A stretch of DNA of 64,000 bases from Parasphingorhabdus sp. SCSIO 66989. GTDB lineage: Bacteria > Pseudomonadota > Alphaproteobacteria > Sphingomonadales > Sphingomonadaceae. The stretch covers positions 2,889,501 through 2,953,500 of the forward strand of contig NZ_CP136594.1 of assembly GCF_032852305.1 (NCBI RefSeq). The letters are read 5' to 3'. Positions within the stretch are counted from its first letter, which is position 1. Each line of letters opens with the position of its first letter. Below are positions 7,362 through 62,524 of the stretch, one piece after another. The translations under genes and the position numbers were made by a program. The notes under the pieces are model-generated. The model had not been told where the DNA came from and ran no database searches. It was given only the letters and a program-made list of their open reading frames with translations.

Positions 7362-7807
7362 TCACGCAAAGACGCTAAGACGCAAAGGGTCTTAGGTGGA
7401 AAGTCCTCTTGAAAATCTCGCCCGCATAGCTGTGGATGCAGGATTTCATATCCATAAAGAGCTCGGACCGGGGCTGTTGGAAACTGTGTATGAAACAGTG
7501 CTTGCGGGCGAGCTTGAACGAAGAGGTCTTAGGGTCGACCGGCAAAAGCCGGTCGAAATAAAGTATAAGGGGATTGTGCATGCTGAGGGATTTCGCGCCG
7601 ACCTCCTTATCGAGAACAGCCTGCTAGTCGAATTGAAATCGGTTGAAAGGCTACAACCTGTCCACGGCAAACAAGTGCTTACCTATCTTCGTTTGCTCGA
7701 TTTGCCACTTGGCCTCTTGATGAACTTTGGAGCAGCTACATTCAAAGAAGGTATAAAGCGCATCGTCAACAAGCACGACAACTTTGCGTCTTAGCGTCTT
7801 TGCGTGA
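7362..7807 (+). mobile_element. 446-bp element with perfect 26-bp terminal inverted repeats enclosing a GxxExxY gene
   Basis: The left arm (7362-7387) is TC followed by octamers ACGCAAAG, ACGCTAAG, ACGCAAAG. The right arm (7782-7807) is its exact reverse complement. The gene at 7396-7794 occupies about 89 percent of the element: its GTG start is 8 bp inside the left arm, the last octamer plus GG supplies an AAAGGG ribosome binding site, and its stop codon lies inside the right arm. After the right arm comes TC then six A. No target-site duplication is apparent. Three gene-less relatives occur in this window. Mobility is an inference from this architecture. Confidence 0.75.
7396..7794 (+). CDS. 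GxxExxY protein, PD-(D/E)XK nuclease-like
   Basis: 132 residues. The family signature GLLETVY is at 26-32. A PD-(D/E)XK-like core is visible: Asp69 in FRADLLIENS, then Glu79-Leu-Lys81 in LLVELKS, and a QxxxY pair at Gln93/Tyr97, the arrangement of RecB-type nuclease folds. The family has no established function that I know of. The GTG start is preceded by AAAGGG, contributed by the terminal repeat, and the final codons (NFAS and TAG) are encoded by the opposite repeat, so gene and repeats form one unit. It lies between maoC and thiolase genes and does not look part of their operon. Confidence 0.85.
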   Translation: MESPLENLARIAVDAGFHIHKELGPGLLETVYETVLAGELERRGLRVDRQKPVEIKYKGIVHAEGFRADLLIENSLLVELKSVERLQPVHGKQVLTYLRLLDLPLGLLMNFGAATFKEGIKRIVNKHDNFAS

Positions 7808-11535: not shown

Positions 11536-11600
11536 TCACGCGGAGGCGCGGAGACGCGGAGGATTTACTTTTTTCTCCGCGTGTCCGCGCCTCCGCGTGA
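11536..11600. repeat. 65-bp gene-less member of the 26-bp-TIR element family
   Basis: The left arm (11536-11561) is TC plus octamers ACGCGGAG, GCGCGGAG, ACGCGGAG. The right arm (11575-11600) is its reverse complement with one mismatch. Only 13 bp separate the arms, so the whole element can fold into one long hairpin. It is followed by TTC and seven A. It has the same 2 + 3x8 layout as the GxxExxY element at 7362 but no coding capacity. Confidence 0.8.
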
Positions 11601-14992: not shown

Positions 14993-15151
14993 TCACGCGG
15001 AGACGCGAAGGCGCGGAGGGAGCATAGTTAGCAAGCATTCTCTTTGATTATCTTGGCGTGCTTTGCATAGATATGCACTTCCATGGTCTCAGGTCGCCTG
15101 ACACTCATTGTAGCGAGCCTATCTTCTCCGCGCCTTCGCGTCTCCGCGTGA
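14993..15151. repeat. 159-bp gene-less member of the 26-bp-TIR element family
   Basis: Perfect 26-bp inverted arms (14993-15018 and 15126-15151): TC plus octamers ACGCGGAG, ACGCGAAG, GCGCGGAG. The 107-bp interior has no open frame but includes small palindromes. The right arm is followed by AAC, five A and the exbD terminator. It fills most of the 304-bp gap between the ABC exporter and exbD genes. Confidence 0.8.
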
Positions 15152-62314: not shown

Positions 62315-62452
62315 TTTAAGTCCTGTATCATCAGAGTCGAACCGCGCCTCTCTAGCGGCTCATGTACAGCTTGTCGAAGGGGTTTCCTATGTGTTGGCAA
62401 ACACCCGCTCTTTCCGTCGGCCCCGCGCAGGCGGGGCGAGGGCTTTTTTGAC

Positions 62453-62524
62453 TCACACAAAGACACAAAGCCGCGAAGAGCTACCACCAAGAAGCCGTCT
62501 TTGTGCCTTAGTGGCTTTGTGTGA
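62453..62524. repeat. 72-bp divergent member of the 26-bp-TIR element family
   Basis: The left arm (62453-62478) is TC plus ACACAAAG, ACACAAAG, CCGCGAAG. The right arm (62499-62524), reversed, is TC plus ACACAAAG, CCACTAAG, GCACAAAG. It has the same 2 + 3x8 layout but the arms have drifted. Six T and GAC precede it, after a GC hairpin (62421-62436). It lies in the 295-bp gap between crtI and the LOG gene; no coding frame. Confidence 0.7.

Follow-up and report, generated by a model that had tools for sequence, protein, structure and literature searches.

Between positions 7362 and 7807 of the window, the 64,000-nucleotide stretch of the Parasphingorhabdus sp. SCSIO 66989 chromosome analyzed here, a single small GxxExxY gene lies tightly enclosed by two inverted arms.

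7362–7387, forward strand: left arm, TCA plus three units, in a perfect 26-bp inverted repeat; homologues have the same unit layout
7365–7371, 7373–7379 and 7381–7387: left-arm units CGCAAAG, CGCTAAG and CGCAAAG, spaced at 8 bp
7384–7389, forward strand: AAAGGG, likely ribosome binding site, a function suggested by the sequence
7396–7794, forward strand: GxxExxY gene, 132 amino acids, predicted PD-(D/E)XK nuclease fold, matching TIGR04256 and PF13366
7782–7807, reverse strand: right arm, exact reverse complement of the left arm, with the gene's stop codon inside
Protein residues H20, E29, D69, E79-x-K81, Q93 and Y97: conserved residues of the window protein's fold

The arms are 26 nt each and 100% complementary, as the earlier note had them, and the left arm reads TCA-CGCAAAG-A-CGCTAAG-A-CGCAAAG. 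The gene starts with GTG and stops with TAG at 7792–7794, so the placement of the stop codon within the right arm is also confirmed. The note's proposal that the repeats supply the ribosome binding site stands as to position, since AAAGGG, 5' of the GTG, straddles the inner edge of the left arm; that ribosomes bind there is likely from the sequence. The 446 bp described as the element hold as its perfect core and not as a proven boundary, because, if mismatches are allowed, the inverted repeat continues for a few bases beyond it.

The encoded protein is clearly a member of the GxxExxY family. In profile searches it scored 134.4 bits against TIGR04256 (cut-off 35) and 132.9 bits against PF13366 PDDEXK_3 (cut-off 22), and it matched these two profiles only, with no match to a tyrosine (HUH/Y1) transposase. 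GxxExxY is a widespread annotated family that is not known to have a function, and 5.39 million open-access papers yielded passing mentions only. A sequence search of the PDB with the window protein returned no match, and a fold search was therefore used. The AlphaFold (AF2) model has a pLDDT of 93.6, and among PDB folds it comes closest to 4ic1 (SSO0001), a Cas4 nuclease, followed at weaker E-values by LHK-Exo and lambda exonuclease. H20, E29, D69, E79, K81 and Q93 are invariant in the best 80 homologues of a longer list, which together with the model and its fold matches bears out the PD-(D/E)XK-like core of Asp69, Glu79, Lys81 and Gln93 that had been read from the sequence. The translation contains no cysteine, and so no counterpart of the four-cysteine iron-sulphur cluster of Cas4. 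The model thus has a PD-(D/E)XK nuclease fold with the D and E-x-K residues of an intact active site, and nuclease activity is predicted.

Arms and addresses of the GxxExxY genes

The 3.27-Mb genome contains eight GxxExxY genes, the other seven 53–64% identical to the window protein, and all eight lie between inverted arms, each with its own variant (CGCAAAG, CACAAAG, CGCGGAG and others). Relatives were numerous in a scan of 84,980 species genomes, and the best 80 of this longer list come from Proteobacteria, Verrucomicrobia, Planctomycetes, Chloroflexi, Cyanobacteria, Acidobacteria, Bacteroidetes and other phyla. An inverted repeat across the gene that beat all 225 shuffled controls was found in 69 of the 75 homologues with enough flank, and nearly all of these repeats share one common architecture; control placements elsewhere in the same loci reached that level in 2.3% of 648 cases. 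Arms were likewise found at 58 of 67 genes in a family-wide sample drawn evenly, without selection for similarity to the window. The 2+3x8 layout that the earlier note saw in the window is therefore general, as TCA plus three 8-bp units (CGCnnAGn, with an arm consensus beginning TCACGC), and the crowd of repeat-free GxxExxY genes that would have spoken against the note's mobile-element reading did not appear. The general form of a unit is C-G/A-C-n-A/G-A-G-n, and its letters differ between genes while mostly agreeing over the six units of one element. Sphingomonads are abundant in both samples, and many of their genes share one address, between fabD and fabG; the counts therefore include events that are not independent of one another, and the breadth of the arms is carried by the spread of phyla rather than by raw counts.

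Comparison with relatives provides good support for mobility of the element DNA. At the window site of the congener G001 the flanking genes are adjacent, with a short spacer and no element, and GxxExxY genes are absent from both congeners, G001 and G002. When the flanks of the other seven copies were joined and searched in relatives, G001 matched straight across the junction for four of them (L011, L012, L014 and L015). One of these sites, L014, which separates two ABC-transporter permease genes, is empty also in G002 and G003. At the fabD-fabG copy (L016) G001 has no gene either, but the spacer has diverged; at L013 other DNA occupies the G001 site, and L010 adjoins a repeated gene. Related genomes thus do hold the locus without the 446 bp, and the same is true of sites of other copies. 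With these empty sites and dispersed copies, the mobile-element layout claimed in the earlier note is upheld as far as the DNA is concerned, and we infer, at a lower level of confidence, that the nuclease itself performs the movement.

A GxxExxY gene is found between fabD and fabG in many sphingomonads (L016, a subset of L115–L169, and L206), so some copies look long resident instead of jumping, this one inside a core operon. A GxxExxY gene also lies behind fabD in a Verrucomicrobiaceae MAG (L130). The flanks of 65 elements gave no sign of a target-site duplication (mean longest direct repeat 2.95, against 2.78 ± 0.11 for random pairing), with a possible GATG duplication at one site only. This leaves no transposase-like footprint and argues against a standard transposase reaction. 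A phage origin was considered and rejected: a search of 50,697 phage records gave no match and IMG/VR one relative, so the gene does not generally belong to phages. On plasmids it turned up in 8 of 72,556 records.

Arm letters and protein residues

The two arms of one element differ at 1.5 of 26 positions, against 4.6 of 26 for arms of different species at fabD-fabG (permutation p 2e-4), and agreement within elements at this shared address means that both arms must have changed together. Letter 2 of the unit (G or A) is common to all six units in 48 of 54 elements (null 11.6, maximum 19), and letter 5 (A or G) in 39 of 54 (null 4.3, maximum 10). Such six-unit agreement would be expected if the units were repeated binding sites for one protein.

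When protein positions were screened for association with the unit letters, residues 105 and 124 stood out; in the AlphaFold model these are placed at the start and the end of two strands. In the discovery set, residue 105 is V with CGCnGAG and mostly L with CGCnAAG (Fisher p 2e-8), and residue 124 is V with CGC and A, I or L with CAC (Fisher p 9e-8); both residues were chosen after inspection of this set. In a further set of 39 non-redundant loci, which share under 80% identity with the first set and among themselves, V105 accompanied G at letter 5 in 15/19 and a residue other than V accompanied A in 19/20 (p 2e-6), while V124 was present with G at letter 2 in 24/32 and with A in 0/7 (p 4e-4). 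Positions 9, 116 and 109, among others, likewise track letter 5, so ancestry contributes to these associations. On a tree of 106 proteins the independent contrasts agree by about 8 to 0 for residue 105 and 8 to 1 for residue 124, on branches that are mostly weakly supported, with three contrasts for each on well-supported ones. The case that the GxxExxY protein reads its own arms rests on this covariation, and we regard it as good and not final.

Gene-less mini-elements and CGTC-tagged repeats

The arms also occur without the gene. A 23-mer of the arm has 32 forward and 32 reverse copies genome-wide at up to 3 mismatches (0 and 0 for a reversed-pattern control), and most of these copies form inverted pairs; a typical mini-element consists of two arms and a spacer of about 22 nt, about 70 bp in all. 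The general arm pattern has 132 matches in this genome against 2 and 0 in the congeners, these being pattern counts from a genome that was searched and sampled by stretches. The window contains the following gene-less elements and neighboring repeats.

11485: start of CGTCATCCCCGCGAAGGCGGGGA, which begins one of the REP-like palindromes between which the next element lies
11536–11600, no strand assigned: CGCGGAG-type mini-element, arms 11536–11561 and 11575–11600, 13-nt spacer
14993–15151, no strand assigned: CGCGGAG-type element of intermediate length, arms 14993–15018 and 15126–15151
62415–62438: CGTC-tagged REP, CGTCGGCCCCGCGCAGGCGGGGC
62453–62524, no strand assigned: CACAAAG-type mini-element (L308), arms 62453–62478 and 62499–62524, adjoining this REP

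Abundance of arms goes with presence of the gene. Beyond two per gene, the median number of arms is 4 in genomes with a GxxExxY gene and 0 in those without (251 family genomes, per-genome counts entered by hand; Mann-Whitney p 6e-8), and within 28 genera having both states arms are up with the gene in 20 and down in 6 (Wilcoxon p 0.001). Some genomes have arms and no gene (for example 27 in G084, 23 in G212 and 22 in G169), as expected of left-over copies or of arms moved by something else, and some have the gene with few or zero arm matches. An origin of the mini-elements by internal deletion from the present gene element is not supported, since their centers are unlike the gene ends. Five mini-elements (L298, L309, L037, L042 and L086) join arms of two letter types, as if halves had been swapped between families. 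In two further cases (L290, G199:C1:1090714-1090779, and L301) the arm pairs point outward instead of inward, with a short spacer.

Many of these elements are nested in a second kind of repeat. Among 32 mini-elements examined, 20 are enclosed by two CGTC-tagged REPs and another 6 adjoin one, so the REP system could account for part of their amplification. This nesting, along with the arms in genomes without the gene, is what would be expected if the arms were ordinary dispersed palindromes moved by some other enzyme, with GxxExxY genes riding between two of them. We consider that explanation improbable, if the best placed of the alternatives. Against it, one arm architecture surrounds GxxExxY genes of many phyla, arms and gene covary, and the link between arms and gene holds within genera. 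Furthermore, one REP pair encloses no arms (L301) and other arms are not bracketed by CGTC REPs (L303 and L304), which indicates two systems, one often inserted in the other. The arms inside REP pairs are of three letter types, matching three different paralogs. Reverse nesting was seen at L306 (G000:C1:3200100-3200420), where another palindrome (GTCAGGGCTGAGCCTGTCGAAG..) lies between CGCGGAG-type arms.

The CGTC-tagged REP has about 79 copies in this genome (G000:C1) and 0 in the five relatives searched, two of them congeners. CGTC REPs have been reported without a dedicated transposase (Di Nocera 2013, PMC3733652). Here, a small GIY-YIG gene (L334, G000:C1:3051696-3051914) is bounded by the same CGTC REP pair. 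Small stand-alone GIY-YIG genes of relatives (L314–L343) likewise have inverted palindromic flanks, many of them CGTC-tagged and gene-specific. Flank repeats above all shuffled controls (maximum 25) were found at 21 of 25 small GIY-YIG genes versus 0 of 5 of UvrC length.

A proposed repeat system with its own candidate nuclease

The explanation that we favor, and hold to be probably correct, is an autonomous repeat system like that of REPINs and RAYTs, driven by a PD-(D/E)XK nuclease that recognizes its own arms. The 446-bp unit would be the autonomous member, one nuclease gene between inverted arms. Its product may bind the three repeated 8-bp units of these arms and cut at or near them, or at a hairpin or cruciform that they form, and if the break were repaired from another copy, the element would be spread or converted. 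Without the gene, the same arms form the mini-elements of about 70 bp, whose spread within the genome of the gene-bearing element resembles that of REPINs accompanying RAYT transposases. The mixed-arm mini-elements fit repair between copies.

If instead the nuclease acted like a homing endonuclease, it would cut the empty allele and be copied in by repair. A small nuclease gene as sole cargo, the lack of target duplication and the recurrent fabD-fabG address all suit such a cycle, as do two-specificity arms within one mini-element, which could come from break repair between copies. The protein nevertheless covaries with sequences inside the element and not with the empty site, and copies lie at unrelated addresses, so we rate this reading as unlikely, slightly more so than passive carriage of the gene; arm-to-arm conversion through cutting of the arms may occur and belongs to the favored model. 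Least likely of all is that the arms serve regulation only, as a long mRNA stem or as operator sites for autoregulation: the left arm does overlap the ribosome binding site and the right arm hold the stop codon, and in 21 of 47 elements the stop is at or beyond the point where the right arm begins, but the arm mismatches show no G-U-compatible excess (35 vs 32; in longer alignments 85 vs 113), a missing wobble-pair signature on which we rejected the stem, an operator needs no matching copy behind the gene, and gene-less arm pairs are numerous and dispersed.

In organization, the nuclease-driven repeat system proposed here appears closest to REPIN/RAYT (TnpA-REP; Bertels and Rainey 2011, PMC3116915; PMC2817692). 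Both have extragenic, dispersed doublets of inverted short repeats and an enzyme gene flanked by the same repeat. The GxxExxY enzyme, however, is of the PD-(D/E)XK type (PF13366) whereas RAYT is a tyrosine HUH transposase, and the repeat consists of three 8-bp units, with no GTAG-type tag at its end, whereas a REP is a GTAG-tagged hairpin. The gene and arms together are also only about 450 bp, in several copies per genome with differing arm letters. Since the tyrosine transposase, which is defining for RAYT, is absent, the GxxExxY system can be said to work like REPIN/RAYT but not to be one. CGTC-tagged REPs (PMC3733652) are similar in forming dispersed inverted doublets, and they enclose most mini-elements here, but they are a separate repeat family, associated here with small GIY-YIG genes. 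With MITEs and insertion sequences the elements share terminal inverted repeats, empty orthologous sites and autonomous as well as gene-less forms, yet they have no DDE/DEDD transposase and no detected target-site duplication. The protein resembles the Cas4, RecB and lambda-exonuclease group of PD-(D/E)XK nucleases in fold, E-x-K and Q..Y motif, but it has 132 amino acids, no iron-sulphur cysteines and a gene bounded by its own repeats. A small nuclease as sole cargo recalls PD-(D/E)XK homing endonucleases, except that the GxxExxY arms are part of the element itself and turn up again at unrelated sites. Within the open-access literature, which our search covered, neither repeats around GxxExxY genes nor the arm sequence was found.

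More broadly, GxxExxY elements may constitute an unrecognized class of self-spreading DNA in many phyla whose sole protein is a PD-(D/E)XK nuclease reading an 8-bp code in its own ends, and, together with the GIY-YIG genes bounded by CGTC REPs, they may indicate that small stand-alone nucleases, and not transposases, are the owners of many palindromic repeats in bacteria; we see the chances of this wider proposition as evenly balanced. If the nuclease-driven explanation is right, the GxxExxY family would gain a function, a target sequence and a testable code of specificity, in which residues 105 and 124 correspond to letters 5 and 2, and the REPIN idea would be extended to a different enzyme class. 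It would also hint at enzymes for seemingly enzyme-less repeats, such as the CGTC REPs that bound small GIY-YIG nuclease genes.
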